NCBI RefSeq assembly: GCF_005377625.1
Contig: NZ_CP040098.1
Span: forward strand, 2,287,501 to 2,351,500
Direction: 5' to 3'
Source of the DNA: Desulfoglaeba alkanexedens ALDC
GTDB taxonomy: Bacteria > Desulfobacterota > Syntrophobacteria > Syntrophobacterales > DSM-9756
DNA: 64,000 nt
Part shown: piece by piece, positions 6,717-63,811 of the stretch
How the letters are laid out: each line of letters starts with the position of its first letter
Numbering within the stretch: position 1 is the stretch's first letter
Translations under genes and position numbers: made by a program
The notes under the pieces: generated by a model
Told to the model about the DNA's origin: nothing
The model's input: only the letters and a program-made list of their open reading frames with translations
The model's database searches: none

Positions 6717-8314
6717 GCGTGAAGGATCTTCCCTGGCAGGTACACTGGAGCCGGGACCGGTGCACCTTGTGCGGGCGGTGCACGGCGGTCTGTCCTGTGC
6801 ACGCTATCGAACTGGCCGTATTCCGTAAGCGCGCCGTCCAGCCCGTGCTCGGCCTCAAGGAACCTCCAAGCAGCCTTTTTCAGGTCTTCTACGGCATCCG
6901 CCAGAAGACCGACCCGGCCTACGCTTGCATCGGGTGCGCCATGTGCACCATGGTGTGTCCCAACGAAGCCATCATACCGGTCCGTTCCGACGAAGCGGAC
7001 AAGCTCCGTTACCACGTGAACCGTGGCGGCCAGCCGAGGCGCCGGGGCGGACGCCGGAACATGCCCGACGGTGTGCTGGACCGGATCAAGTTCACCCGCA
7101 TTTCCATGCTCACCGACCCGGCTCTCGACGCGGGGCGCCACGAGTTCGAGCTGCGGACGCTGCTGGGTCGCATCCTGCCGCCCGAGGACAGCCTTCAGCT
7201 GCTCAAGGACGAGGGGTGGATTCCGCCGGTTCGTGAGATCTACCCGCTGATCATCGGCGGGATGTCCTTCGGGGCGCTTTCGCCCAACATGTGGGAAGGG
7301 CTCCAGATGGGGGTGGCGTACCTGAACGAGGAACTGGGGATGCCGGTGCGGATGTGCACGGGCGAAGGCGGCTGCCCGCCGCGCCTTCTCCGGTCCCGTT
7401 TCCTGAAATACGTGATCCTCCAGATCGCCAGCGGTTACTTCGGCTGGGACGAAATCATCCACGCGCTTCCGGAAATGAAGGAAGACCCGTGCGCGGTGGA
7501 GATCAAGTACGGCCAGGGCGCCAAGCCAGGCGACGGCGGGCTCCTCATGTGGTACAAGGTGAACCAACTCATTGCGGCTATCCGCGGGGTTCCGTCCGGG
7601 GTGAGTCTTCCCAGTCCGCCCACTCACCAGACCATGTATTCCATCGAGGAAGCGGTCGCCAAGATGATTCAGTCCATGTCCATGGCGTGGGGTTTTCGCG
7701 TCCCGGTCTACCCCAAGATTTCAGGGACGTCCACGGCGCTCGCGGTGCTGAACAACCTCACCCGGAATCCCTACGCGGCGGGACTGGCCATCGACGGCGA
7801 AGACGGTGGAACGGGCGCGGCCTACAACGTGTCTTTGGACCACATGGGCCACCCCATCGCCAGCAACCTCCGGGATTGCTACCTGAACCTGGTGAAACTG
7901 GGAAAACAGAACGAGCTGCCGCTTTTCGCCGGGGGCGGCATCGGGAAGCGCGGCAACCTGGCCGCCAATGCGGCGGCCCTCATCATGCTGGGGGCAAGTG
8001 GGGTGCAGATCGGAAAATACATCATGCAGGCGGCGGCCGGTTGCGTGGGGTCCGAATCGGACCGCTGCAATGTCTGCAACATCGGGATCTGTCCCAAGGG
8101 AATCACGTCCCAGGATCCGCGGCTTTACCGGCGGCTCGACCCCGAACTGGTGGCCGAGCGGGTGGTGGACGTGTTCTTGGCCTTCGATACGGAATTCAAA
8201 AAGATCGTGGCGCCGCTCGGACGGTCCACGTCGCTTCCTATCGGCATGTCCGACGCGCTGGGCGTGGACGATCGCAACATTGCGGAAAGACTTCAAATCC
8301 GATACGTGGTTTGA
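6680..8314 (+). CDS. gltB: Glutamate synthase FMN-binding central subunit with N-terminal ferredoxin domain
   Basis: This 544-aa protein transfers ammonia to 2-oxoglutarate to make glutamate, using electrons passed through iron-sulfur clusters. Residues 28-38 (CTLCGRCTAVC) and about 82-93 (CIGCAMCTMVC) form two [4Fe-4S] sites. The middle is the FMN-binding TIM barrel, with GGMSFGALS and the GEDGGTGAA motif. Cysteines in CNVCNIGICPKGITSQDP near residue 463 match the position of the [3Fe-4S] site of classical GltB. This domain-split form is common in archaea and anaerobic bacteria. It shares an operon with both neighbours. Confidence 0.92.
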   Translation: MVTNGFIAPSSLSVKDLPWQVHWSRDRCTLCGRCTAVCPVHAIELAVFRKRAVQPVLGLKEPPSSLFQVFYGIRQKTDPAYACIGCAMCTMVCPNEAIIPVRSDEADKLRYHVNRGGQPRRRGGRRNMPDGVLDRIKFTRISMLTDPALDAGRHEFELRTLLGRILPPEDSLQLLKDEGWIPPVREIYPLIIGGMSFGALSPNMWEGLQMGVAYLNEELGMPVRMCTGEGGCPPRLLRSRFLKYVILQIASGYFGWDEIIHALPEMKEDPCAVEIKYGQGAKPGDGGLLMWYKVNQLIAAIRGVPSGVSLPSPPTHQTMYSIEEAVAKMIQSMSMAWGFRVPVYPKISGTSTALAVLNNLTRNPYAAGLAIDGEDGGTGAAYNVSLDHMGHPIASNLRDCYLNLVKLGKQNELPLFAGGGIGKRGNLAANAAALIMLGASGVQIGKYIMQAAAGCVGSESDRCNVCNIGICPKGITSQDPRLYRRLDPELVAERVVDVFLAFDTEFKKIVAPLGRSTSLPIGMSDALGVDDRNIAERLQIRYVV

Positions 8315-8330
8315 TCTCGTGGCGGAAAAA

Positions 8331-10721
8331 ATGAAACAGGGCGGAGTCCCTCCGAGGCATAAGATGACAAACAGTGGTGGTTCCACGGAACAGGCTTTCC
8401 AGAAATCCTATTGGGTGGCCGGCAAGGAGAACGGTCGCCGTCTCGATTCGCGAATCCTTGAGGAACGGATTCAGCAGGCCGTGGCTGAGGGGCATCGGGC
8501 GCTGGAGGTGGAGGCCTTCGGGCAGCACGGCATCGGCGGGCGGCTGTGGCGTGCCGGAGACGAACCGGTCAAGGTGGTGGTCCATGGATCTCCCGGGCAG
8601 CGCCTGGGTTCCATGGGTTTTCCCAATACGCAGATCGAGGCTCTGGGCCCCGCTTCCGACGACGTGGGCTGGCTGAATGCGGGGGCGGAAATCGTCGTCC
8701 ACGGAAACGCCGGAAACGGCGTGGCCAACGCCATGGCTCAGGGGAAGGTTTTCATCGCCGGAAACATCGGCGCCCGCGGCATGACCATGACCAAGCACAA
8801 TCCGCGGTTCGACCCTCCGGAACTTTGGGTGCTGGGTTCCGCCGGCGATTACTTCGCCGAATTCATGGCGGGGGGGATCGCGGTGATCTGCGGGTACAAC
8901 CCCCAGAACGCCGAAAACGTGCTGGGCTACCGTCCCTGTGTGGGGATGGTGGGGGGGAAGATCTTCTTTCGAGGTCCCCACGGAGGCTACAGCCGTACGG
9001 ATGCCAAATCCATCCCTCTTTCCGACGACGACTGGCATTGGCTCGCGAAAAACCTGCAGGTCTTCCTGGAACGGATCGGCCGGAGCGAGCTCTTCCCCCA
9101 GTTTGCCGATCGGGCCGTCTGGCAGCTGCTGAAGGCCCGAATGCCGAGCGAAAAACGCGCCGGTCCCCGGCGCGCCATGGGCGATTTCCGGAAAGACATC
9201 TGGGACGGGGAACTGGGCCGGGGGGGCCTTATCGGTGATTTGACCGACCTGGACCGGAGTCCTGTGCCGGTCATTACCACCGGCGCACTGCGGCGGTTCG
9301 TTCCGGTTTGGGAAAACCGGAAATATGCGGCTCCCTGCGAAGCCGCCTGCCCCACGGGCATCCCGGTCCACGAACGCTGGCGGCTCATCCGCGAAGGCCG
9401 TGTGGACGAGGCTGTGGACCTGGCCCTTGCCTACACGCCCTTTCCCGCCACGATCTGCGGGTACCTGTGTCCGAATCTGTGCATGCAGTCGTGCACCCGG
9501 CGGTCTTTCAACATGGCTCCCGTGGATGTGACGCAACTGGGCAGGGCGAGCCTCAAGGCTTCGCTTCCCGAACTGCCGCCGCTTTCCGGAAGGAGAGTGG
9601 CCGTGGTCGGAGGCGGACCGGCGGGGCTTTCCGTGGCGTGGCAGCTCCGGCGTGCGGGCCATGAAGCGGTGGTCTACGACCGGGAATCGACGCTCGGCGG
9701 TAAGATTTCCAGCGTCATCCCGAAGACTCGGATTCCGGAAGGCGTGGCGGAAGCGGAACTGGAACGCATCCGCAAGGTCCTTCCCCATGTCCACCTGCAG
9801 CAGGACGTCACCCGCGAAGATCTGGAGCAGCTCAAGGCGGACTTCGACTTCGTCGTGATTGCGACGGGCGCACAGAAACCCCGGCTGCTTCCTGTTCCCG
9901 GAAAGGAACGACTCATCCCGGCGGGCGATTTCCTCAAAGAAAGCAAAGCCGGAAAGGCCAAGGTCGGAACGCGGGTCGTGGTCATCGGAGCCGGCAACGT
10001 GGGCTGCGATGTGGCCACGGAGGCCCACCGGCTGGGCGCCGAAGAAATCACGCTGATCGACATCCAGGAGCCGGCGTCGTTCGGCCGGGAACGCAAGGGC
10101 GCAGAGGCCGCCGGAGCTCATTTTCTTTGGCCGGTCTTCACAAAGGCCGTGACTTCGAAAGGCGTGGAACTCACTTCCGGCGAAACGATTCCCGCCGATA
10201 CGGTGATCGTTGCCATCGGCGATGCACCGGATTTGGAGTTTCTACCGGAGACCGTGGAAACGGACCGGGGGTTCATCGTGGTCGATGAAAACGGCCGGAC
10301 CTCCGATCCAAAGATCTTCGCCGTCGGCGATGTAGTCCGCCTTGGACTGCTCACGGACGCGGTGGGAGCCGGCCGCCGGGCGGCCCTAGCCATCGATGAT
10401 CTCCTTTCGGGCCGGCGTCCGACCCGGGAAAGCCGAAAGATCATCGACGTTTCACGCGTGAAGCTCGAATACTTCGATCCTCGGAACCTGCGGTTCGAAG
10501 GCTTGGAACAATGCGCCGGTGAATGCGCATCCTGCGGGTCTTGCCGGGATTGCGGCATCTGCATCGCCATCTGTCCCAATGCCGCCATTTCTAAAAAGGA
10601 AAACGGAAGCGGGGACTTCGAGATGGTGGTGGACGACGACCGATGCATCGGATGCGGCTTCTGCGCCGGCGCGTGCCCGTGCGGTATCTGGGACCTGGTG
10701 GAAAACGAGCCGCTCGGCTGA
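8331..10721 (+). CDS. Fusion: GltB C-terminal (GXGXG) domain + GltD-like oxidoreductase + ferredoxin
   Basis: This 796-aa protein joins three parts of the glutamate synthase machine. Residues about 20-270 are the GXGXG beta-helix domain of GltB (repeated glycine spacing, e.g. GQHGIGGRLW, GNAGNGVANAM). Residues about 336-420 carry the GltD N-terminal cluster cysteines (CEAACPTGIP, CGYLCPNLCMQSC). FAD and NAD(P)H sites follow: VAVVGGGPAGLS at about 423 and VVVIGAGNVGCD at about 550. The C-terminus is a 2[4Fe-4S] ferredoxin (CASCGSCRDCGIC from about 731; CIGCGFCAGACP at about 772). ATG 8331 is used; ATG 8364, with GAGG six bases upstream, is equally possible. It likely supplies reducing power to the FMN subunit. 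Confidence 0.88.
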   Translation: MKQGGVPPRHKMTNSGGSTEQAFQKSYWVAGKENGRRLDSRILEERIQQAVAEGHRALEVEAFGQHGIGGRLWRAGDEPVKVVVHGSPGQRLGSMGFPNTQIEALGPASDDVGWLNAGAEIVVHGNAGNGVANAMAQGKVFIAGNIGARGMTMTKHNPRFDPPELWVLGSAGDYFAEFMAGGIAVICGYNPQNAENVLGYRPCVGMVGGKIFFRGPHGGYSRTDAKSIPLSDDDWHWLAKNLQVFLERIGRSELFPQFADRAVWQLLKARMPSEKRAGPRRAMGDFRKDIWDGELGRGGLIGDLTDLDRSPVPVITTGALRRFVPVWENRKYAAPCEAACPTGIPVHERWRLIREGRVDEAVDLALAYTPFPATICGYLCPNLCMQSCTRRSFNMAPVDVTQLGRASLKASLPELPPLSGRRVAVVGGGPAGLSVAWQLRRAGHEAVVYDRESTLGGKISSVIPKTRIPEGVAEAELERIRKVLPHVHLQQDVTREDLEQLKADFDFVVIATGAQKPRLLPVPGKERLIPAGDFLKESKAGKAKVGTRVVVIGAGNVGCDVATEAHRLGAEEITLIDIQEPASFGRERKGAEAAGAHFLWPVFTKAVTSKGVELTSGETIPADTVIVAIGDAPDLEFLPETVETDRGFIVVDENGRTSDPKIFAVGDVVRLGLLTDAVGAGRRAALAIDDLLSGRRPTRESRKIIDVSRVKLEYFDPRNLRFEGLEQCAGECASCGSCRDCGICIAICPNAAISKKENGSGDFEMVVDDDRCIGCGFCAGACPCGIWDLVENEPLG

Positions 10722-51448: not shown

Positions 51449-51502
51449 GTGTTTTCAACAACGATCGGAGCGGAAAGGAGCCTTGCGTTGGAGCAGATTC
51501 CC

Positions 51503-52477
51503 ATGCAACGCGGGATGAAAGAGAACATCGAAAAGAAAACGGTCTGGAACTGGCCGGGCGGCGGAGTGGCCCTGCGTGTCTTCAGAAAAACCGAAAGCAG
51601 GCGATCCGATAACGACGCCGGCTATCCCGCCGGGACTTGTCGCATGGTCTTTTGCATCCAGGGATGCCTCCTGCTTTGTCCAAGCGACGATGACAGTCCG
51701 ACAGGATACCGAATCACTCCGGATCAAGCTGTTTTGTTCTACCATCCCCGACCACATGCGCCGCAGGATGATACTTCCCAATGTGCTCGGATGCTGTCAA
51801 TTCATTTTTCAGCGCGGCCCTTGCTTGAGTGGCTGGGCGACACCGATTTGGAAAGGCGGTTGAAGCGCGCCGTCGAAGCAAACCGGCCCCTGCGCGTGAT
51901 GAAATATCTCAACGCCGAGACGGTCGCGGCATTGGCGCGGGCCGTTGCTTTCATCGAGGGCGGCTGCGGCCCGAGTCTGCAGGCGATGATTGGCTTGTTG
52001 GAATTGGTCTGGCGGTTTGCCGGCAGCCCCGATCTGACAGTCGCCTCCGGCGTCCGCGATTCCGACCGGCACGCGCTGGCCGGAGTGTGCGCCACCTTGG
52101 AGCGCAACCTCGATCGTCCCCCGTCGCTCAAGGCGCTCGCCGCCCAGGCCGGTATGAGTGTCTCCAAACTCAAACTTCTCTTCCCGCAAGTCTACGGTAT
52201 AACGCCTTACGCCTATCTGCGCCGCTTGCGCATGCATAAGGCTTACACCCTGCTGACGACCAGCGGCATGAACGTCACCGAAGTCGCCCTGGAGGTGGGT
52301 TACAGCAGTCTGAGCCATTTTTCCCGAACTTTCGCCGAGTGCTACGGGGTGTTCCCCTCGCGGTTAAGGCTGTCGAAACCTTCAGCGGAAAGCGACTCAA
52401 TGAAACCCGACCGGCATCCAGCTGAATTCTATAGCTTTTCAGAAAAAATAATTTCGCATTCGGCCGCGAGGGAATGA
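51503..52477 (+). CDS. AraC-family transcriptional regulator (PchR-like)
   Basis: This 324-aa protein has an N-terminal ligand-binding half and a C-terminal AraC-type double helix-turn-helix (SLKALAAQAGMSVSKLKLLF; GMNVTEVALEVGYSSLSHFS, RTFAECYGVFPSRLR). The closest forms regulate siderophore or iron-chelate uptake with the ligand as co-inducer. ATG 51503 with GGAG upstream is chosen, because a frame from 51449 would start inside the terminator. It directly precedes the transport genes. Confidence 0.85.
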   Translation: MQRGMKENIEKKTVWNWPGGGVALRVFRKTESRRSDNDAGYPAGTCRMVFCIQGCLLLCPSDDDSPTGYRITPDQAVLFYHPRPHAPQDDTSQCARMLSIHFSARPLLEWLGDTDLERRLKRAVEANRPLRVMKYLNAETVAALARAVAFIEGGCGPSLQAMIGLLELVWRFAGSPDLTVASGVRDSDRHALAGVCATLERNLDRPPSLKALAAQAGMSVSKLKLLFPQVYGITPYAYLRRLRMHKAYTLLTTSGMNVTEVALEVGYSSLSHFSRTFAECYGVFPSRLRLSKPSAESDSMKPDRHPAEFYSFSEKIISHSAARE

Positions 52478-52683: not shown

Positions 52684-53688
52684 ATGCACGTAAAAAGACA
52701 TCCTCAGTCGTACCGAAAATCCCTGTCGCGCTCGGCGGCCCTGTGCGGGTTGGTCGCAGCGCTCGTCGCGCTGTCAACCCATTCGGCCATGGCCGGGTGC
52801 GCCGCGCCGGCCTTGGAACGGTCGTCGCTGGTGGTGATCGGCGATCCAATCGCCGCCGTCTGCTACCGGCTGGGCGTGGCGCCGCTGGCCTGGGTGGGGC
52901 GCCGCTCGCTGATGGAAAACGGCGACGTGCTGGCCGCCGCCTCCGAAACTCTCGGCTGTCCCAATGCCTTCTGCGGTCCGCGGCAGGAGATGGCCCTGAA
53001 GCGGATCGTCGAACTGGCGCCCGAAAAACTCCTCATCACTCCGCCCGACTGCAAGTACCGGCCTGACCTGTCCTATGAAAAACCGCTGAAGCTGCTCAAG
53101 GAAGCCGGTTTTCAACCGGTATTCATCGATTTTGCCGGCGGACCGGAGCCGGCGGTGCGGCGGATCGCGGCGGCCCTCGATCGCGCCGAAGAAGGCGAGC
53201 GGCTGGTCCAGACCTACGAGAAGGGCATGCGGCGCGCCCGGAATTTCATGGCCCGGGTTCCGGCCGGCCTGCGCCTGGCGGTGGTTGCGGGGACCTTCCA
53301 GGAGGCCACGGGCAAGTCCTTTCTACGCCTTGAGGCGGCCGGCGGTTATTCGGACGATTTTCTGCTCAAGCCGCTCAGGGCGGTCAACGTGGCCGCCGAT
53401 ATCACGGGCCCAGACGTGAAAATCGAAAAGGGGCACATCGCCTTGCGCAGTCTGGAAAAGGTGCTGGAAGCCCGTCCGGACGCCATCGCCGTGACCGGGG
53501 ACCCGCTGCCTGTTTTCCGGGCCATGGCCGAAACGCTGGCCCATCGTCCGGACTTGGCCACGGTGCCGGCGGCCAGGCAGTTCGCCGTTTATCCACTGCC
53601 ATTCTACGCCGGAACCGATCCGTTGGCCTACCCCGAGGTGTTGACCCGCTGGGCGCTGGCCCTGGCGCCGTTTGAACCCGCCAAATGA
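52684..53688 (+). CDS. Periplasmic binding protein (iron chelate / cobalamin type)
   Basis: This 334-aa protein has a signal peptide (SAALCGLVAALVALSTHSAMA) and a periplasmic binding protein fold of the Peripla_BP_2 type used for ferric siderophores, heme and cobalamin (LVVIGDPIAAVCYRLGVAPL; RIVELAPEKLLITP; LKLLKEAGFQPVFID). It has several cysteines in the N-terminal lobe (CPNAFCGP), unusual for this class. No ABC permease or ATPase gene is in the window, so it may work with distant genes or directly with the TonB system. Confidence 0.8.
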   Translation: MHVKRHPQSYRKSLSRSAALCGLVAALVALSTHSAMAGCAAPALERSSLVVIGDPIAAVCYRLGVAPLAWVGRRSLMENGDVLAAASETLGCPNAFCGPRQEMALKRIVELAPEKLLITPPDCKYRPDLSYEKPLKLLKEAGFQPVFIDFAGGPEPAVRRIAAALDRAEEGERLVQTYEKGMRRARNFMARVPAGLRLAVVAGTFQEATGKSFLRLEAAGGYSDDFLLKPLRAVNVAADITGPDVKIEKGHIALRSLEKVLEARPDAIAVTGDPLPVFRAMAETLAHRPDLATVPAARQFAVYPLPFYAGTDPLAYPEVLTRWALALAPFEPAK

Positions 53689-53698
53689 CGGAGGAACG

Positions 53699-54484
53699 AT
53701 GACGCTCCGCCGCATCCAAGTCAAGAGGGTTTGCTCCGTCGGCCTTCTGTTCGGTCTGCTGTTGGTTCCGCGGCCGGTCGGGGCCGCCGAAACCGGGGAC
53801 CGGGTCCGGCAGACCGTCGAGCAAACCATTGATGTCATGCAAAAAGCGCAGCAGCAGGAAGACGCCTGGGCCGGACAGAGGGCCGACCTGCTGGCCCGGT
53901 TTCAATCCCTGCAAGCCGAAAAGAAGCGCCTCGAGCGCACCCGCGAAGGGCTGGAACAGCGCCTTGCCTTCGAAGAAAAGGCGTTGCTCGAGGGCCGGCG
54001 AAAAGCCGAAGGCGCGCGATGGATCGAACACGAGCTGCAGGGTTATCTCGAATCCGTCGTGGCGCGCCTGGAGGAATTCATCCGGAAAGACCTGCCCTTT
54101 CTGCCGGCGGAAAGATCGCAGCGCATCGCATCCGTGAAGGAATGCCTCATGCGGCCGGATTCCGGCGTCGCGGAAAAGTACCGCCGGGTCATGGAGGCGC
54201 TGCAGATCGAGGCCGATTACGGCCGCAGCGCCGAGGTGGTTCAGGACCGTGTGGTCATCGACGGCAAGCCGCTGATGGTGGATATCCTGAGGCTGGGGCG
54301 GATCGCCGTCTTCTGGCGCACCCCGGACGGAAGCCGGGCGGGCCATTTCGATCCGGCCACGGGAGAATATGAACCGCTGGATTCCCGATACCATCGCGAA
54401 ATCGAGAAAGCGATGCAGATCGCACGCCGGGAGCGCACCACGGATCTGGTCCGGCTGCCGCTGGGGAGGATTGTCGTCCAATGA
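53699..54484 (+). CDS. DUF3450 protein of the TonB2/TtpC system
   Basis: This 261-aa protein has a signal peptide (GLLFGLLLVPRPVGAAE), a coiled coil (about 45-105, LQAEKKRLERTREGLEQRLA) and a beta-rich C-terminal region (ADYGRSAEVVQDRVVIDGKP). It matches DUF3450, found next to ExbB/TtpC genes in Vibrio-type TonB2 clusters. It probably sits in the periplasm and helps couple the proton channel to TonB. It overlaps the next gene by 4 bp. Confidence 0.85.
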   Translation: MTLRRIQVKRVCSVGLLFGLLLVPRPVGAAETGDRVRQTVEQTIDVMQKAQQQEDAWAGQRADLLARFQSLQAEKKRLERTREGLEQRLAFEEKALLEGRRKAEGARWIEHELQGYLESVVARLEEFIRKDLPFLPAERSQRIASVKECLMRPDSGVAEKYRRVMEALQIEADYGRSAEVVQDRVVIDGKPLMVDILRLGRIAVFWRTPDGSRAGHFDPATGEYEPLDSRYHREIEKAMQIARRERTTDLVRLPLGRIVVQ

Positions 54485-55974
54485 ACGGACAAAACGGTGG
54501 GGCGACGAAACGCGCCAGGGGATGCAAGGCATCAAGCGTCCGGCGTTACGCTGTAGCGGGAACGCTGGCGCTGGTGGGCCTGTGGCTTTGCACCGGACCG
54601 GTTGCGGCTGAGGACATGCGCGCCGCCTTGCAAAAGGCCAAGGCGCGCTACGAGGCCGCCCTGGCGGAAGCCCGCGAGAGCCAGAAACGCATCACCGAGG
54701 ACCGCCGGCTCCTCGAGCGGGAAGTCGCGCTTCTGGAGGGCCAGGTCGCCGCGCTCAAGGCGGACATCGACGCCGGCAACGCCCGCATCGAGGCCCTGGC
54801 CCGGGAGCGGGCGGCGTTTTCCGAGCGGCAGTCGGAAGATGAATCGGCCCTGCGGGAACTGACCGGCTCCATGCGGGTGGTGGCCCGCGACCTGGAAACC
54901 ACCCTGGCCCAGTCGCTGCTGACCGCTCTGGCACCGCAACGCCTCGACGCTTTGAAGTCGATGCTGGACAAGGACCATTTCCCGGGTCTCGACGATGCGA
55001 AAATCATGAGCGATCTGCTCTTCGAGGAAATGGCCTTTTCCGGCGAGGTGGCGCTGCGCAAGGGAAGTTTCATCGGTCGCAACGGCAACGAAACGCAGGG
55101 CGATATCTTGACCATCGGTAAGTTCACGGCGGCCTACAGGGCTGATGCGGAGGTGGGCTTTCTGAACTATTCGGAAGAAAACCACCGGTTTTTCGCGCTT
55201 TCGTCGCTCCCGCCATGGTCGATCGGCCGCAATCTCAAGGCCTATATGCAGGGGGATACGGATGAGGTCACCCTCGATATTTCGGACGGCGCCGCGCTGA
55301 AGCAGATCACCCATACCAACACCCTCATGGACCAGATCCGCAGCGGCGGCCTGCTGGTCTGGCCCATTCTGGCCATCGGCGTCTTTGCGATTCTCATCGC
55401 GGTGGAGCGGGTGTTTTTCCTCAAGGGGGTCCATGACAACACCGACGGGGTGATGGGCCGGGTCAACGACCTGGCGATGCAGGGCCGTTGGGAGGAGTGC
55501 GACGCCGTCGTCAAACAGAAAAAAGGGCGGCCGGTTTACGACGTCCTGGAGGCGGGGCTGTGCGCCCGGGGAGAAGATCGCGAAACGCTGGAGAGCATTC
55601 TTCAGGAGGCGATCCTGAAGGAACTCCCCCGGCTGGAACGGTTTCTGCCCATGCTCAACATGATGGGCGCCATCGCTCCGTTGCTGGGGCTGTTGGGCAC
55701 GGTGACCGGCATGATCACCACGTTTCACGTCATTACGCTGTACGGCACGGGGGACCCGCGCATGTTGTCCGGCGGCATCTCCGAGGCCCTGGTAACGACG
55801 ATGCTGGGCCTTTCCGTGGCCATTCCCATCATGCTCACCCACACCTTCCTGAGCCGGCGCGTCGAGCATGTGGTGGGCGACATGGAGGAAAAGGCCGTGG
55901 CGCTGACGAACATCATCTACCGGCAAACGGTTGTGGCGGAGCGCCGGGCTGTTTCCTGCGGCGTTCCCAATTAG
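54481..55974 (+). CDS. TtpC-like MotA/TolQ/ExbB proton-channel protein with periplasmic extension
   Basis: This 497-aa protein has a signal peptide, a long periplasmic coiled coil (about 45-140) and a DUF3450-like middle. Its C-terminal MotA/TolQ/ExbB domain has membrane helices at about 286-310 and in PLLGLLGTVTGMITTFHVI. This is the form of Vibrio TtpC, which is needed for TonB2-dependent uptake. It overlaps the DUF3450 gene and is followed by exbB. Confidence 0.9.
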   Translation: MNGQNGGATKRARGCKASSVRRYAVAGTLALVGLWLCTGPVAAEDMRAALQKAKARYEAALAEARESQKRITEDRRLLEREVALLEGQVAALKADIDAGNARIEALARERAAFSERQSEDESALRELTGSMRVVARDLETTLAQSLLTALAPQRLDALKSMLDKDHFPGLDDAKIMSDLLFEEMAFSGEVALRKGSFIGRNGNETQGDILTIGKFTAAYRADAEVGFLNYSEENHRFFALSSLPPWSIGRNLKAYMQGDTDEVTLDISDGAALKQITHTNTLMDQIRSGGLLVWPILAIGVFAILIAVERVFFLKGVHDNTDGVMGRVNDLAMQGRWEECDAVVKQKKGRPVYDVLEAGLCARGEDRETLESILQEAILKELPRLERFLPMLNMMGAIAPLLGLLGTVTGMITTFHVITLYGTGDPRMLSGGISEALVTTMLGLSVAIPIMLTHTFLSRRVEHVVGDMEEKAVALTNIIYRQTVVAERRAVSCGVPN

Positions 55975-56000
55975 GCGTACCGCTTTGCTCGAGGATGCCG

Positions 56001-56591
56001 ATGGACTTTGTGGCCCAAGTCTACGCGTACCTTCAACCGGGCGGGATCGTCATGTTCCCGCTGGTGATTTCCTCCGTGTGCATGTGGGTGCTCATCATCG
56101 ACCGGGTCCTTTACTACCGCCAACTGGGCCGGGATGATATCCCGCTGCGGCAGGCCGTGGGGATGCTTGCGGCAAAAGCGGCGCCGGCCGGCGCCACCGG
56201 GCTCAGGGCCGGTGTGGTGACAGCCTTTCTTGCGGAGCGCACCGGAGACCGGGACCTTGACAAGAAGATCCTTGACCGCTGCGCCATGCGGGCCAGGCCG
56301 TCGATCCGCAGGGCCCTGGCGCTCATCGCCACCCTGGCCGCCGTGGCGCCCCTCTTCGGACTTTTGGGGACGGTAACCGGCATGATCACCACCTTCGACG
56401 TGATCGCCCTGTTCGGCACCGGCAACCCGAAAGCCATGGCCGGAGGCATTTCCGAAGCCCTGATCACCACCCAAAGCGGTCTGACGGCCGCCATTCCGGG
56501 GCTCTTCATGAGCACCTATCTCATGCGGCGCGCCGGCCGGCTGGAAGGCCGGCTCGACGAAACGGTCGCCGTGCTCAAGAGGCATCTATGA
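56001..56591 (+). CDS. exbB: Biopolymer transport protein ExbB (TonB2 type)
   Basis: This 196-aa protein has three membrane helices, with the channel motif APLFGLLGTVTGMITTFDVI and the ALITTQSGLTAAIPGLF helix of ExbB/TolQ. GAGG lies six bases before ATG 56001. Its end overlaps exbD by 4 bp. Confidence 0.92.
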   Translation: MDFVAQVYAYLQPGGIVMFPLVISSVCMWVLIIDRVLYYRQLGRDDIPLRQAVGMLAAKAAPAGATGLRAGVVTAFLAERTGDRDLDKKILDRCAMRARPSIRRALALIATLAAVAPLFGLLGTVTGMITTFDVIALFGTGNPKAMAGGISEALITTQSGLTAAIPGLFMSTYLMRRAGRLEGRLDETVAVLKRHL

Positions 56592-57010
56592 TCAACGTTC
56601 GCCAATCCATCCGGGGGAGCCAAAAAACCGCCGAGATCAACATGGCGCCGCTCATCGACCTCGTGTTTCTGCTGCTGATTTTCTTTCTGGTCACCACGAG
56701 CTTTGTCAAGGAGACCGGCATCGACGTGGAGCGGCCCCGGGCGTCGACGGCGACCCTGAAGGAGGCGGGCAACATCCTGGTGGGAATCTCCGCCGAGGGC
56801 AGGGTCTTTCTCGATTCAAAGGAGGTCGATGTGCGGAGCGTCCGTGCCCATATCGAACGGTGTCTGGCGGAAAATCCCGAGGGTGCCGTGGTCATCGTCG
56901 CCGACAAGCAGAGCATCACGGACATGGTGATCCGAGTGATGGATCAATGCCGGCTGGCCGGAGCCCGTAACGTGAGCATCGCCGCTTCGTGCTCCGATGC
57001 CGAGGGATAA
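56588..57010 (+). CDS. exbD: Biopolymer transport protein ExbD (TonB2 type)
   Basis: This 140-aa protein has one membrane helix starting NMAPLIDLVFLLLIFFLV, with the essential Asp at residue 24, and a periplasmic domain ending VMDQCRLAGARNVSIA. It stops immediately before tonB. Confidence 0.93.
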   Translation: MINVRQSIRGSQKTAEINMAPLIDLVFLLLIFFLVTTSFVKETGIDVERPRASTATLKEAGNILVGISAEGRVFLDSKEVDVRSVRAHIERCLAENPEGAVVIVADKQSITDMVIRVMDQCRLAGARNVSIAASCSDAEG

Positions 57011-57718
57011 ATGGACGCGAGGACTTTCCGCAGAGCCTGGATCGCCGTGTCGGGCGCGCTGCTGGTCAATGCCTTTTTGCTGGCAATGCTTCCTTGGCCC
57101 GTGAGGCAGAAGTGCGTCAAACCGGATCTGGAGGTGGTCATGCCGGTGCATCTGGTGCAGATCCGGCATACGAAGCCAGCGCCTGCCGGACCGGAGGAAC
57201 CGCCGCCGGAGCAAAAGGAAGCGCCGAAGGCCCCGGAAGAGATTCCCGCTGCTTTACCTGACGTTTCGATCCGCCGGCCGGTGCCGGATACATCGCGGAT
57301 GAGCCTGGAGGTTCCCTCGCTGAACTTCGAAATCAATGCGAACCTCGCCGGAGGGGTGGCAGTGGCGCCGCCGCCGGCGGCGGTCGGCCCTACCGTTTTT
57401 GCATCGGCGGCGGCCAAGGCCATCTGGGACCAGGGCGAAGTGGATCAGGTGCCGGTGCCCGTGTCGCAGGTAAAGCCGCTGTATCCGTACCGCGCCCGGC
57501 GGCTGCAGTTGGACGGAAAGGTCAGGGTGCGGTTTCTCGTCAAGGAAGACGGACAGGTGAGCGGGCTCGAAATCGTGGAATCAGTTCCGCCCGGCGTCTT
57601 CGACGACAGCGTGCGCAGCGCGTTGGCCAAGTGGAGATTTTCTCCCGGGAAAGTCAACGGCAAACCGGTTTGCACCCGGGTTGCCACTACGATCGAATTC
57701 AAGTTCGAGGATGAGTGA
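57011..57718 (+). CDS. tonB: TonB energy transducer
   Basis: This 235-aa protein has an N-terminal anchor (about 10-28), a Pro/Glu-rich span (APAGPEEPPPEQKEAPKAPE) across the periplasm and a C-terminal TonB domain (VKPLYPYRARRLQLDGKVRV; VESVPPGVFDDSVRSALAKW). It transmits proton-motive energy to outer-membrane receptors such as that at 59556. It overlaps the TPR gene. Confidence 0.92.
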   Translation: MDARTFRRAWIAVSGALLVNAFLLAMLPWPVRQKCVKPDLEVVMPVHLVQIRHTKPAPAGPEEPPPEQKEAPKAPEEIPAALPDVSIRRPVPDTSRMSLEVPSLNFEINANLAGGVAVAPPPAAVGPTVFASAAAKAIWDQGEVDQVPVPVSQVKPLYPYRARRLQLDGKVRVRFLVKEDGQVSGLEIVESVPPGVFDDSVRSALAKWRFSPGKVNGKPVCTRVATTIEFKFEDE

Positions 57719-58953
57719 TGAAAACGAGATCGCCGCAAGAAAAAGACCGCCCTACCGCGTTTGCCGCCGCTGAAGCCGGATGGAAAATGTTCGGCCCTTG
57801 CGCCCTGGTGGCGGCGATGATGGTGTGGGCCGCTGGATCGCCGCTGGCCGCCGACCAGGGCGGCGACCTGCCGCAGGCGGTGCAGAGGGTGGTCTACGAA
57901 GCCCAGCAGGACATGACGGCCGGGAAGTACGCCGAGGCCGAAAAGAAGCTGTTGGCCTACGAGCGTTCGCATCCGGACGCCCCGCACTACCTGGTGGCCT
58001 TCACTCTGGGAAATGTTCTTTCGTACCAGGGCAAGAACCAGGCGGCGCTGGAGCGGTACCGCGCCTGCGCCGAGTTGAATCCGGGATTCGGACCCGTCTG
58101 GCAAAACCTCGGCAAGACCTGTTTCGACCTCAAGCAATACCCCCGGGCCGGAGAATATTTCTTCAAGGCTTGGCAGACCAGTGAGACGAAAGACCCGAAG
58201 CTCCACTACCATGCCGCCGTGGCCTGGATGCTGGCCGGCGAGAACCAGAAGGCCCTGGCGCATCTGGAATACCTGGTTTCGGGGGATGCGGGGCGGCCCG
58301 AGAAGCAATGGATCGAGGCGCTGCTGAAGGTCAGCCTGGACCTCGGCCGCGACGACAAGGCCGTCGAGGCCGTACGCAGTCTGCTGGCGAAGGAAGAAAA
58401 CCAGCCACGCTGGTGGAAGCTGTTGGCTCAGCTTCACGCGCGGCGACAGGAGTACCGTAAGGCCGTGAGCGCTTTTGAAGTCTACGCATTGCTGGTCCCC
58501 GCGCTCGGTCGTGAGGATGCGATCCTGATGGGTGACCTGTACAGCGCCATCCACATTCCCCTCAAGGCAGCCCAATATTATCGCAGCGCCCTGGCGATGC
58601 AGGACTGCCCCAAGCTGCGCAAGAAGCTGGCGGCGGCCTGGCTGGCCGCCCACCGTCCGGACGAGGCCCGCGAAACGATGCTCGCCGGACCGGAGCCGCT
58701 CTCCTGCCCCCGGATCTGGTTGGCCCTGGGCCGGACCTATTACGATCGGGGTGACTGGGAAAAGGCCCTGGATGCTTTTTCCCGTAGCGCCCGTCTCGCA
58801 CCCGAGGACGGTCGGGCGCACCTGATGCTGGGGCACTGCGCCCTGCAACTGCAGAAGAAGCAAATCGCCGTCGCGGCCCTGCGCAAGGCCTGCGAGTTCA
58901 AGGAATACCGGCGGCAGGCCGGCCGGCTGCTCGAAGCCACGGCCGCGCTCTGA
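57718..58953 (+). CDS. TPR protein of the TonB2 cluster
   Basis: This 411-aa protein has a signal-like hydrophobic N-terminus (CALVAAMMVWAAGSPLAA) and tetratricopeptide repeats through the rest (AGKYAEAEKKLLAYERSHPD; QAALERYRACAELNPGFGPV; GDWEKALDAFSRSARLAPED). TPR proteins regularly end TtpC-type TonB2 operons and may scaffold the periplasmic complex. ATG 57718 overlaps the tonB stop. Confidence 0.88.
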   Translation: MKTRSPQEKDRPTAFAAAEAGWKMFGPCALVAAMMVWAAGSPLAADQGGDLPQAVQRVVYEAQQDMTAGKYAEAEKKLLAYERSHPDAPHYLVAFTLGNVLSYQGKNQAALERYRACAELNPGFGPVWQNLGKTCFDLKQYPRAGEYFFKAWQTSETKDPKLHYHAAVAWMLAGENQKALAHLEYLVSGDAGRPEKQWIEALLKVSLDLGRDDKAVEAVRSLLAKEENQPRWWKLLAQLHARRQEYRKAVSAFEVYALLVPALGREDAILMGDLYSAIHIPLKAAQYYRSALAMQDCPKLRKKLAAAWLAAHRPDEARETMLAGPEPLSCPRIWLALGRTYYDRGDWEKALDAFSRSARLAPEDGRAHLMLGHCALQLQKKQIAVAALRKACEFKEYRRQAGRLLEATAAL

Positions 58954-59555: not shown

Positions 59556-61442
59556 ATGAAACAATTTAAACTCGTATTATGTATATTAACTTTCATTCTT
59601 CCATTTAGCTTTTTTGCACAGGCGCAGGAGGTAAAAGAGCTTGGGAAAATCGTGGTTACGGCCACAATGACAGAAAAGGAGATTGAGAAAGCCCCCGGCT
59701 CCATTGAGGTAATTACCTCTCAGGAGATAAAGGACATAAACGCCCAGACTATAGCCGAGACATTGGAGATAGCCACCGGACTTATTGTTTCAGATGAGAG
59801 CGGAAGAGTAAAGGGACTCAGTATACGTGGCACGGGAAACAAACGTGCTCTGGTATTGATTGATGGAAGAAGATTTTCTTTAGGTTACAAGGATTCTGTT
59901 GATCTAAAACAGATTCCCATTGATATGATCGAGCGTATCGAAGTGGTCAGAGGCCCGACCTCCGCGCTTTACGGAAGCGATGCGATAGGGGGTGTTGTAA
60001 ATATCATTACTAAAAAACCGCCAAAAGAGTTCGCAATGGGGGCTACTTTTCAATATGGTATGGATACCTATGGAGAAGGTGAGGAACCGATTGTCAGGGG
60101 TTATCTTGGGGATACATTAGGACGTTTTGGATTCCTCTTTGCCGGAAGTTACCTGGATAAAAATGAATGGGATAGAGATGGCATAATCCCTGACGATGGA
60201 GATGACGAAGATCTTGGTTCGATAAACGGACGTTTATCTTTCGAACTGACTGAGCATCAGAAACTCCTTGCAGGATTTGAATATAGTGAACTGGATAGAG
60301 AAGGGCTTAGATTTTATGAAGGTCTTGACAGGGAAAGAATAGCCGAGGACACGAGACAAAGCTATTTCTTGCAATACAATGCCAGGCCGAATCCCCTTTT
60401 TAATTTTGAGCTCAGGGCCTATCACTCCGGACATGAAGATGATGTAAAGTTCTCACCCTTTGCGGAAACCACTCCCGAGGAAGATGCAGAACGTAAGCTG
60501 GATCAGGTAGAAGGTCGTTTCACGGGCGTTCTTTTTGAGAAACATATATTCACCGCGGGTTCGGAATTTAGAAAGGAGGAAATAGATATTGACACAGGTA
60601 GTGAGGATATAGATAATTTTAGTATCTATCTGCAGGATGAATATCAGATTTTTGACCCCTTATATCTGGTTCTGGGCGTCAGATTTGATGAACATTCCGA
60701 ATTTGGATCGGAATGGACCCCCCGTTGTTCGTTAATATACAAAATCCTTCAAAATCTTAGATTCAAAGCGTCTTATGGGACCGGTTTTCGCGCCCCCGGT
60801 CTCTCCGAACTTTATGTTACTTCCATGAGACAGAGAGGAAAGAAGGTTTATGAATCTAATCCGGATTTAGATGCAGAGACATCAGAGAGCTATGAAGTCG
60901 CCATCGAAGGAGAATATAAAAAGTCATGGGGTAGGATTACCGCCTTTAGAAATGAGATAGAGGATTTGATCGAACCTGTCTGGTATAAATCAACAGGCAA
61001 AGGCAAAAATAAGAAAGACTATTACAGATACGAAAACGTTTCTGAGGCTACTACGCAAGGCGTGGAGCTGGAATGCGGCTTAAACCTTCCTCTGGGCTTT
61101 TCTTTCTCAGGGAATATGGCCTACCTGGATACAGAAAACGAAGACACTGATAAGGATTTGGAAGGGGAGCCGAAATATAAAGGACATCTGCAATTGGGTT
61201 ATCGATATCCTGAATTTGGACTTCGGGCTAATGTCCGAATGGATTACATCGGCGAACGCTACTATGCAGAGGGAACAGAAGGTGGCTATAGCCTTTTTCA
61301 CTGCTTCCTATCCAAAGAAATTTCTCAGTACATGGAGGTGTTTGCCGGGGTCAATAATATCTTCGACAAAAGAGAGGAGAAGGACGAAGTCGTATACGTG
61401 GAGCCGACGTATTTCTATGGCGGCCTGTCCATAAAATTTTGA
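59556..61442 (+). CDS. TonB-dependent outer-membrane receptor
   Basis: This 628-aa protein has a signal peptide (ILTFILPFSFFAQA-QE), a TonB-box-like start (ELGKIVVTATM), a plug domain (GLSIRGTGNKRALVLIDGRR; ERIEVVRGPTSALYGSDAIG) and a 22-strand-type barrel ending with Phe (GGLSIKF). The size and plug resemble CirA/BtuB/FepA-like receptors; the ligand is not determinable. It is AT-richer than the TonB2 genes, suggesting a different origin. AGGAG precedes ATG 59556. Confidence 0.93.
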   Translation: MKQFKLVLCILTFILPFSFFAQAQEVKELGKIVVTATMTEKEIEKAPGSIEVITSQEIKDINAQTIAETLEIATGLIVSDESGRVKGLSIRGTGNKRALVLIDGRRFSLGYKDSVDLKQIPIDMIERIEVVRGPTSALYGSDAIGGVVNIITKKPPKEFAMGATFQYGMDTYGEGEEPIVRGYLGDTLGRFGFLFAGSYLDKNEWDRDGIIPDDGDDEDLGSINGRLSFELTEHQKLLAGFEYSELDREGLRFYEGLDRERIAEDTRQSYFLQYNARPNPLFNFELRAYHSGHEDDVKFSPFAETTPEEDAERKLDQVEGRFTGVLFEKHIFTAGSEFRKEEIDIDTGSEDIDNFSIYLQDEYQIFDPLYLVLGVRFDEHSEFGSEWTPRCSLIYKILQNLRFKASYGTGFRAPGLSELYVTSMRQRGKKVYESNPDLDAETSESYEVAIEGEYKKSWGRITAFRNEIEDLIEPVWYKSTGKGKNKKDYYRYENVSEATTQGVELECGLNLPLGFSFSGNMAYLDTENEDTDKDLEGEPKYKGHLQLGYRYPEFGLRANVRMDYIGERYYAEGTEGGYSLFHCFLSKEISQYMEVFAGVNNIFDKREEKDEVVYVEPTYFYGGLSIKF

Positions 61443-61472: not shown

Positions 61473-62369
61473 ATGATTATCTCGAAAAAACGTGCGCGCG
61501 CAGTGCTTTCAACAACGCTGACCACCCTGTGCTGCTGGACTATTCTGTCCGTTTTCGCGGTCGCGGGGCAAACCGCAGGCCTCGGCCGTTTCTGCCTGGT
61601 GAGCCTCGGCTGCGGCGATCCGGACAACATCACGCTCAAGGCGGTCAAGACGATCAAGGCCTCCGACATCCTCTTCTGCTCGGAGCAAATGAAAGCCGCC
61701 CATCCGGAGCTGATCGCCGGCAAGCAGATCTATCCGCTGCCGAGTCTGAAAATCCACAAACACTTTCAGGCGTTGAAGGCCGGCTTTTTCCAGGGCGCCA
61801 AGGCCGGGAAGGCCAAGGACCCGGAGATCGAAAGGAAGATCGAAGAATTCAGGCGCATCGTCACCGAGGCCGTTCAGGCCGGCAAGAACGTATCGCTGCT
61901 CGATTACGGCGATCCGTGCATCTACGGTCCGTACATCTGGACCATGCAGGTGCTCAAAGATCTCGATCCACTCATCGTGCCGGGCATCAGCAGCTTCAAC
62001 GCCGCCAACGCCGCTTTGAGAACAGGCGTCACCTTCGGCTTCGAGGCGCACTCGGCCGTTTTGACCAACGCCGCCGACCTGAAGGAAGGCTACGACGGGG
62101 CCGACACCATCGAGCGGATGGCCGCCACCCGGTCCTCCATGGTGATTTTCACCATGTTCGTGGAGCTCGATGAATTGGTTGAAAAGCTCTCCCGCCACTA
62201 TCCCGCCGACACTCCGGTGGCCATCGTGGTCAAGGCCGGTTACGAAAAGGAACAGAAGATCATCCGCGGAACGCTCAAGGACATCGTGCAGATCGCGGCC
62301 AAAGAGGGAGATATTTCTTTCGAGCACCTGATCTACGTCGGCGATTTTCTAAATGGCCAGGCCGCATGA
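61473..62369 (+). CDS. Tetrapyrrole methylase-family protein with signal peptide
   Basis: This 298-aa protein has an N-terminal export signal (KKRAR, then a hydrophobic run ending SVFAVAGQTAG) directly followed by a tetrapyrrole (corrin/porphyrin) methylase domain. The domain has LVSLGCGDPDNITLKAVKTI at the first loop, LDYGDPCIYGPY at the SAM-site motif and VPGISSFNAANAAL. Members methylate cobalamin or siroheme precursors in the cytoplasm with SAM, so an exported form is unexpected. It may bind rather than modify a tetrapyrrole, or remain membrane-anchored facing the cytoplasm. It follows the receptor by 30 bp and overlaps the permease by 4 bp. Confidence 0.85.
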   Translation: MIISKKRARAVLSTTLTTLCCWTILSVFAVAGQTAGLGRFCLVSLGCGDPDNITLKAVKTIKASDILFCSEQMKAAHPELIAGKQIYPLPSLKIHKHFQALKAGFFQGAKAGKAKDPEIERKIEEFRRIVTEAVQAGKNVSLLDYGDPCIYGPYIWTMQVLKDLDPLIVPGISSFNAANAALRTGVTFGFEAHSAVLTNAADLKEGYDGADTIERMAATRSSMVIFTMFVELDELVEKLSRHYPADTPVAIVVKAGYEKEQKIIRGTLKDIVQIAAKEGDISFEHLIYVGDFLNGQAA

Positions 62370-63811
62370 TGCACCACGACGGCAGCGGTGAGCTGAAACG
62401 CGAGATCGGCCCTTTTTCCGCCGTGAATCTGGTGATCGCCAACATGGTGGGCACGGGGATCTTTACCACCTCCGGGTTCATGATGCAGGCGCTTGGCGAT
62501 CCGGGCGCCATGCTGCTGTGCTGGCTGGCCGGCGGGCTGTTCGCCCTTTCCGGAGCCCTCTGCTACGCGGAGCTGGGCGCTAGGTTCCCCAGAGCCGGCG
62601 GGGAGTATGTCTTCCTGAGGGAAAGCTTCGGCTCCGCCACCGCCTTTCTCTCCGGCTGGATCTCGCTGGTGGTGGGGTTCTCGGCGCCCATCGCCGCCGC
62701 GGCCATCGCCTTTGCCACCTATCTGCTGCGGGTCCTGCCGGCGGGCGGCATCCCAGCCGGTGCTCCGGGCGCGATGCCGCTTTCCGCGGTTTCGCTGACG
62801 GCCTCGGCGGCCATCGTGCTGCTGACCCTGGCTCATACCCGCAGCCTACGGCTGGGCAAAGGCGTCCAGAACCTGTTGACCCTCTTCAAGGTCGGCTTCA
62901 TCGTCTGCTTCATCTGCTTGGGCATCTGGAAGGGAGAAGGCTCGGCCGCCCATTTCGCCTCCGGCGACATCACGGGCAAACTCTTGGATGCGCGTTTCGC
63001 CGTGGCCATGATCTTTGTTTCCTTTTCCTTTAGCGGATGGAATGCGGCCGCCTACATCGGCGGTGAAATCCGCAATCCCCGGCGCAACATCCCTTTGGCG
63101 CTGATCGCCGGCACGTCCATCGTCATCTGCCTGTACCTGCTGCTCAACGGCGTTTATGTCTGGGCGCTGTCTCCGGCGGAAATGTCCGGGATCGTTGATA
63201 TCGGCGCCGCCGCGGCCGCCGCCCTGTTCGGAGACGCCGTGGGCCGGTATCTGAGCGCCGCTATCGCAGTCGGTCTGCTGTCCACCCTGAGCGCCATGAT
63301 CGTTACCGGCCCGCGGGTTTACTACTCGATGGCCAAAGACGGCATGTTCTTTCGCCTCTTCGGCAAAATCGATGCCCGGCACCAGACCCCCGGCAGGGCG
63401 GTCTGCCTGCAAGCCGGCCTTGCCGTCTTCATGGTGCTGACGGCCTCCTTCGAACGGCTCCTGCTGTACATCGGATTCACCCTGTCGCTGTTTTCCATGC
63501 TGGCCGTGGTCGGCATGATCAAGCTGCGACTGACAAACCCTGGCCGTGTGCCGAGCTACCAGACCCCGGGCTACCCGGTGACGCCGCTTGTTTTCATCGC
63601 CGGCAACCTTTGGATCATCGGCTATTCGATCCTCACCCGCCCGGTGGCCGCGCTCTGGGCGCTGACCACCATCGCCGCCGGGATGCTGGTCTTTTGGCAG
63701 TTTCGCAGACAAGACGCGCAAGACGGGACCGCGCCGGAGGTCACCTGGATCGGAGAAGCTGCGCCGTCCAGCCCGGCGATGCCGGAACCGAAACCGCGAA
63801 GCAGATTCTGA
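62366..63811 (+). CDS. APC-superfamily permease
   Basis: This 481-aa protein has about twelve membrane helices. The first contains the substrate-binding GTGIF motif (ANMVGTGIFTTSG), typical of the APC amino acid/polyamine transporters, and helix 6 starts FSFSGWNAAAYIGGE. The hydrophilic C-terminal tail is short. It overlaps the methylase gene by 4 bp, so the two are co-translated. The substrate is unknown. Confidence 0.9.
   Translation: MMHHDGSGELKREIGPFSAVNLVIANMVGTGIFTTSGFMMQALGDPGAMLLCWLAGGLFALSGALCYAELGARFPRAGGEYVFLRESFGSATAFLSGWISLVVGFSAPIAAAAIAFATYLLRVLPAGGIPAGAPGAMPLSAVSLTASAAIVLLTLAHTRSLRLGKGVQNLLTLFKVGFIVCFICLGIWKGEGSAAHFASGDITGKLLDARFAVAMIFVSFSFSGWNAAAYIGGEIRNPRRNIPLALIAGTSIVICLYLLLNGVYVWALSPAEMSGIVDIGAAAAAALFGDAVGRYLSAAIAVGLLSTLSAMIVTGPRVYYSMAKDGMFFRLFGKIDARHQTPGRAVCLQAGLAVFMVLTASFERLLLYIGFTLSLFSMLAVVGMIKLRLTNPGRVPSYQTPGYPVTPLVFIAGNLWIIGYSILTRPVAALWALTTIAAGMLVFWQFRRQDAQDGTAPEVTWIGEAAPSSPAMPEPKPRSRF

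Follow-up and report, generated by a model that had tools for sequence, protein, structure and literature searches.

An exported-type tetrapyrrole methylase-fold protein in a TonB receptor operon of Desulfoglaeba alkanexedens and its possible role in nickel/cobalt-type uptake

Described systems and the predicted export of TPm

CbiF/CobM enzymes (PF00590, TIGR01465) carry the tetrapyrrole methylase fold, which to our knowledge, and likewise in the literature searched, is otherwise found only in cytoplasmic SAM-dependent enzymes. No description of exported tetrapyrrole methylases was found in the open-licence literature searched. A tetrapyrrole-pathway enzyme that is reportedly sent to the periplasm is the cobaltochelatase CbiK(P) of Desulfovibrio; its reaction, however, is that of a chelatase and does not involve SAM. 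In metal uptake, NikK and NikL are components of the nickel/cobalt system NikKMLQO, of which orphan copies also occur in an unexplained context (PMC2667541). A DUF4198 protein from Ideonella is secreted and binds Ni2+ with a Kd of 18 nM, and TonB receptors and NikR-type regulators are encoded near DUF4198 genes (PMC12537917).

The window, i.e., the whole analyzed stretch of 64,000 nucleotides from D. alkanexedens, contains at 61473–62369 (+ strand) a gene for a methylase-fold protein of 298 aa, here called TPm. Gene calls are ORF-based. The ORF starts with ATG, with AGGAAA located 5′ of it. Residues 40–271 match the Pfam profile PF00590 with an E value of 4.4e-41 and 141.6 bits (cut-off 27.8), and the score against TIGR01465 is 116.9 bits, which is below the cut-off of 259.65. 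Other PF00590 proteins are encoded in the same genome, including a cluster around 2.51 Mb.

TPm begins with a predicted signal peptide (61473–61565, + strand) with cleavage after A31, between AVA and G. It was assigned by sequence inspection and by a simple hand-written rule, which was used for all signal peptide calls. In the N-terminus, MIISKKRARAVLSTTLTTLCCWTILSVFAVA followed by GQTAGLGRFCLV, a basic n-region leads into a hydrophobic h-region and a cleavage-like A-V-A end, and the first β-strand directly follows the signal segment. The initial annotation had described a signal sequence fused directly to a methylase fold, and this was borne out, as n-, h-, and c-regions are followed by the PF00590 domain. 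A downstream start codon that removes the signal had been named as a possible objection. The later in-frame ATG, GTG, or TTG starts are GTG11, GTG43, and ATG73. With a start at GTG11, the hydrophobic run would still be present; the other two codons fall within the methylase domain. Hence, no ATG, GTG, or TTG start yields a complete domain free of the signal, and we rejected a downstream start as an explanation. At the level of sequence, the prediction of TPm as an exported protein is supported.

Relatives of TPm and conservation of the signal

Scanning 84,980 species genomes, we obtained 116 relatives. We retained 80 loci, many of them from metagenome-assembled genomes, and locus counts depend on contig ends. 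The loci belong to Desulfobacterota, Beta- and Gammaproteobacteria, Planctomycetota, Omnitrophota, and Fermentibacterota, and the order and phylum of the window include relatives with about 40% identity. Among 148 sampled genomes from this phylum, about 1 in 10 had strong full-length matches (E < ~1e-50). Weaker matches (E ~1e-30 to 1e-38) were clearly separate, mostly spanned only the last two thirds of the protein, and are probably ordinary CbiF. No relatives were found in the viral contigs searched, and plasmid matches were all below 60% identity and mostly annotated as ordinary CobM.

The simple rule assigned a signal peptide to 86 of 100 intact N-termini of relatives. Among six PF00590 controls, four started at the domain without a signal, and two with extended starts were just at the threshold. 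The combination of signal and methylase domain is more than a coincidence, as dozens of distant genomes share it. A quick maximum-likelihood tree placed ten signal-less members (from Pigmentiphaga, Halomonas, Marinobacter, Janthinobacterium, and others) as a beta/gamma-proteobacterial group nested inside a proteobacterial branch of exported members; its rooting is unsure, as the outgroup rows CAN_L019 and CAN_L020 are probably mis-framed and CAN_L003 has a long branch. Two more signal-less genes (L075, L114) are located outside this branch. As most signal-less members nest inside exported ones, export looks older, and the signal was probably lost in the ten-member branch, with the rooting uncertain.

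These ten members retain the same pocket residues as the exported ones, so what the protein does may be independent of where it is located, which weighs against the periplasmic role proposed below. Members that lack the signal but keep the pocket could also favor the view that TPm is a cytoplasmic CbiF-like enzyme and that export is incidental or wrong, either because the start was mis-called or because the hydrophobic stretch does not direct export. We consider this highly improbable. The start codons leave no whole domain without a signal, the signal is conserved across several phyla despite a variable sequence, and the signal-less branch appears derived in the quick tree. Moreover, a lipobox, for example VAGC or AAGC, is present in several tandem-domain members, and in one locus (L029, 2413–3975, − strand), the methylase fold is fused behind a secreted NikK domain in a single chain with one signal peptide (DUF4198 at 18–229, TP_methylase at 266–497).

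The family also includes variant forms. Tandem two-domain exported members (L031, L032, L051, L080, L084, L089, L090, L095, L103, L113, L115, and L118) trace to one old duplication in the quick tree. Some clusters contain two to three exported methylase-fold genes each (L043, L048, L051, L053, L066, and L098). In Halomonas, Marinobacter, and Marinobacterium (L109, L116, L120; ~7485–9738), signal-less relatives overlap an MFS exporter gene, which is EmrB-like in L109; perhaps these proteins are cytoplasmic enzymes with an export partner.

Operon context in the window and in related loci

The TPm gene is located 30 bp 3′ of the gene for TonB-dependent receptor 1 (59556–61442, + strand; PF00593/PF07715), which is similar to CirA (E 2.4e-59) and BtuB (E 2.7e-39) in the PDB. 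It overlaps by 4 bp with the gene for an APC-family amino-acid permease (62366–63811, + strand; PF13520, E 6e-53) with LAT/BasC-type relatives in the PDB. Upstream, a TonB2 set is encoded entirely on the + strand. It is headed by an AraC-type regulator (51449–52477; an ORF resembling AraC-type ORFs in L051 and L044), which is followed by a PF01497 periplasmic binding protein (52684–53688; Pfam), relatives of which were found by BLAST near TPm genes in L043, L044, and L078. Next are a DUF3450 protein (53699–54484; PF11932, E 1e-68), a TtpC-like fusion of DUF3450 to MotA/TolQ/ExbB (54481–55974; PF11932 and PF01618), and a second, TonB2-type ExbB (55995–56591; an ORF that is MotA/TolQ/ExbB-like by eye). 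ExbD (56588–57010; PF02472), TonB (57011–57718; PF03544), and a TPR protein (57715–58953; TPR families) complete the set. The previously proposed placement of TPm between a TonB receptor and a permease, with a TonB2 set upstream, was thus confirmed. The set resembles the Vibrio-type TonB2 complex with TtpC in its DUF3450, DUF3450-ExbB fusion, ExbB2, ExbD, TonB, and TPR genes, but differs in that it is placed beside a receptor-TPm-APC operon.

The segment 58954–61442, which contains the receptor gene and a small opposite-strand ORF, is low in GC (43–47%) amid genes of 58–65% GC. The receptor 1 gene itself has 43.6% GC, and a second receptor gene beyond the window end has 45%; the receptors have possibly been exchanged horizontally within a conserved operon.

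Beyond the permease, the cluster continues with a weakly CcsA-like gene (its Cytochrom_C_asm match is weak and below the cut-off), a membrane protein, NikK, the second TonB receptor, a gene assigned by eye as FeoB-like, and a second NikK. We take NikK to be the DUF4198 protein, in line with the shared context. The two DUF4198 genes are located at 2,353,525 and 2,360,627 of the genome, so that the first is ~2 kb beyond the window end at 2,351,500. NikK matches solved-structure chains named phosphoribosylglycinamide formyltransferase (9mhi).

Similar neighbors recur in other genomes. Within 6 kb, the 61 exported-type loci counted without the Planctomycete and signal-less ones contain a TonB receptor (52), an APC permease (42), NikK/DUF4198 (27), NikL (18), FmdE (13), ExbD (10), and CbiM (4), where NikL was called by similarity to NCBIfam NF058648 below its cut-off and CbiM by NF004905 above the cut-off. 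The usual order is TonB receptor, TPm, NikK (optional), APC, NikL (optional), and CbiM (optional). Among the 80 exported-type genes, window included, 43 have the receptor directly upstream. Only two signal-less members (L082, L096) have an adjacent receptor; homologs that all lack the signal in the same neighborhood, which would have spoken against the initial annotation, are therefore not what we observed. Directly downstream of the 80 genes, NikK was found 21 times and APC 22 times. The TPm and APC genes overlap by exactly 4 bp in 12 cases across classes, including the one in the window. Against a role in metal uptake, more than half of the loci have no NikK within reach, and the core of receptor, TPm, and APC also occurs without any metal protein.

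In Planctomycetes (L060, L064, L065, L070, L087, L111), a prepilin-like gene precedes TPm, which is often followed by NikK, and there is no TonB receptor. The 3′ end of several clusters is formed by a gene for a large MFS/spermidine-synthase/TPR protein (L032, 13388–16771, and relatives).

TPm genes are genetically linked to NikK, NikL, and NikM-CbiM in the manner of nickel/cobalt uptake components: the neighbors of TPm repeatedly include NikK, NikL, and CbiM, and in one case NikK and TPm are fused. TPm and the APC permease, however, are absent from the components of NikKMLQO described in the available parts of PMC2667541 and PMC11247825, and many TPm clusters lack an ECF transporter. The TPm clusters may represent one of the orphan NikK/NikL contexts.

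The same neighbors bear on the tetrapyrrole-binding role in heme or corrinoid uptake which the initial annotation had suggested. TPm would then be a periplasmic, hemophore- or corrinophore-like protein for TonB-dependent uptake, with the tetrapyrrole site kept and the SAM function lost. Tetrapyrroles are indeed the best-known substrates of the fold, the receptor resembles CirA and BtuB, a PF01497 binding protein is encoded upstream and the weakly CcsA-like gene downstream, and CbiK(P) is reportedly a precedent. A further point in favor is that Rfam detected cobalamin riboswitches in 2 of 16 related loci. Both are located downstream of the TPm gene, however, which argues against this role. Between 44000 and 64000 of the window, Rfam gave no match, cobalamin riboswitches included. 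The genes that recur next to TPm encode NikK/DUF4198, NikL, CbiM, and an amino-acid permease rather than Btu or Hmu ABC transporters. We therefore found the suggested role unsupported and regard tetrapyrrole binding as rather unlikely.

Pocket and candidate role in metal uptake

An AlphaFold model of mature TPm (pLDDT 92.4, pTM 0.88) has the canonical CbiF fold, with 1cbf as the best match (Z 22.1, rmsd 2.6, 231 aligned residues). TPm thus belongs to PF00590 by its profile and by its two-domain fold. A model that included the signal peptide gave ~15 Å rmsd to all methylases and suggested a new domain arrangement. As the mature-only model is canonical, we dropped this odd domain orientation as an artefact.

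The SAM contacts of R. capsulatus CobM are Pro10, Asp83, Ser112, Leu165, and Ala193 (PMC6478909). They align with C47, D147, S174, T227, and A255 of TPm, respectively; Ser is kept at S174, and the Pro and Leu contacts are replaced. D147 and A255 are the same in all of 93 exported sequences, position 227 is Thr in 74 of them, and positions 47 and 174 vary. The SAM-pocket neighborhood is the most conserved region of TPm (1 of 20000 random sets was as high), and P153, N176, N179, T227, M228, and Y288 are specific to the clade. This conservation indicates that the cleft is under selection, although its residues are clade-specific. Compared with CbiF/CobM, TPm shares the whole fold, the glycine-rich loop, and the Asp and Ala contacts with SAM, but it forms a separate clade with Thr in place of Leu165 and invariant residues of its own. 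It also appears to lack the cytoplasmic, cobalamin-biosynthetic setting, as it has a predicted signal peptide and is encoded in a TonB-receptor operon outside a cobalamin operon.

In NirE, Arg111 is a substrate residue (PMC4731766). By alignment, the substrate/catalytic positions Arg111 and Met186 of NirE correspond to P153 and T227, both conserved in most of the clade, P153 with a single exception. TPm hence does not group with the uroporphyrinogen III methyltransferases SUMT/CysG/NirE at these two positions. For tetrapyrrole binding, the near-invariant P153 is a counterargument that excludes the SUMT substrate mode only.

The altered pocket also matters for catalysis. That known members of the fold need SAM, as had been noted at the outset, is established knowledge, whereas one contact in the SAM pocket of TPm differs, with Thr in place of Leu/Met. 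TPm could be an active SAM-dependent methyltransferase in the periplasm that modifies an imported ligand. Two of the five published CobM contacts (D147, A255) do not vary within the clade, S174 of TPm is still Ser, and conservation in the protein is highest around the pocket. Periplasmic catalysis requires a SAM source, and we know of no periplasmic SAM supply; SAM would have to come across the membrane, perhaps through the APC permease, the gene of which is translationally coupled. The solved relatives of this permease are ordinary amino-acid transporters, however, and most of the clade has Thr at the Leu/Met contact, which makes this reading improbable. The more specific form, in which the imported ligand is a metallophore and the coupled permease supplies SAM or exchanges methionine for SAH, is slightly less probable still.

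Predicted export together with receptor, permease, and nickel-binding neighbors in many bacteria suggests that an old biosynthetic enzyme fold was reused for metal (nickel/cobalt-type) uptake outside the cytoplasm. The best reading of TPm is a periplasmic ligand-binding component rather than a methylase of the cobalamin pathway. We give about even credence to the full proposal that TPm represents a distinct exported CbiF/CobM-like clade which works outside the cytoplasm in TonB-dependent transition-metal (nickel/cobalt-type) uptake. The receptor, energized by the neighboring TonB2 complex, would import a metal chelate. The cleft of exported TPm, which in cytoplasmic relatives accommodates SAM and the tetrapyrrole, would take up either this chelate or its ligand. 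The metal may then be passed to the periplasmic Ni-binding NikK, and also to NikL/CbiMQO in clusters that encode them. An amino-acid-like ligand would be carried across the inner membrane by the APC permease, the gene of which is translationally coupled to TPm. The SAM pocket of enzyme relatives recognizes an α-amino acid, which would suit such a ligand. The fold, the signal peptide and its conservation, the conserved operon, the NikK-TPm fusion, and the pocket with its kept and altered residues are observed; the nature of the metal and of the ligand, binding instead of catalysis, and the cargo and direction of the permease are what we infer.

If correct, the proposal would supply a periplasmic step that has been missing from the picture of how sulfate reducers and others acquire nickel/cobalt, and annotations that file proteins of the TPm type as cobalamin enzymes would have to be corrected. 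It would also provide a clear test case of an enzyme becoming a binding protein outside the compartment of its cofactor. In its exported form, the methylase fold is present in several phyla and is tied to a TonB receptor, an amino-acid permease, and NikK.

Some observations speak against nickel/cobalt as the cargo, the weakly CcsA-like gene in the cluster of the window among them. Upstream of TPm genes, a NikR-like motif was not enriched over shuffled sequences. Fur-like sites (4–6 mismatches) were slightly more common than in shuffles (10 of 74 vs. 9 of 222), so iron is possible at some loci. Two loci encode binding proteins in other combinations. In L036 (11678–14204), an exported methylase-fold gene is flanked by genes for an FmdE-like protein and a PBP-like binding protein that is TupA-like by eye. 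In L044 (9923–11407), a COX1-like membrane part is fused to a PF01497 periplasmic binding domain, and this gene adjoins a methylase-fold gene.
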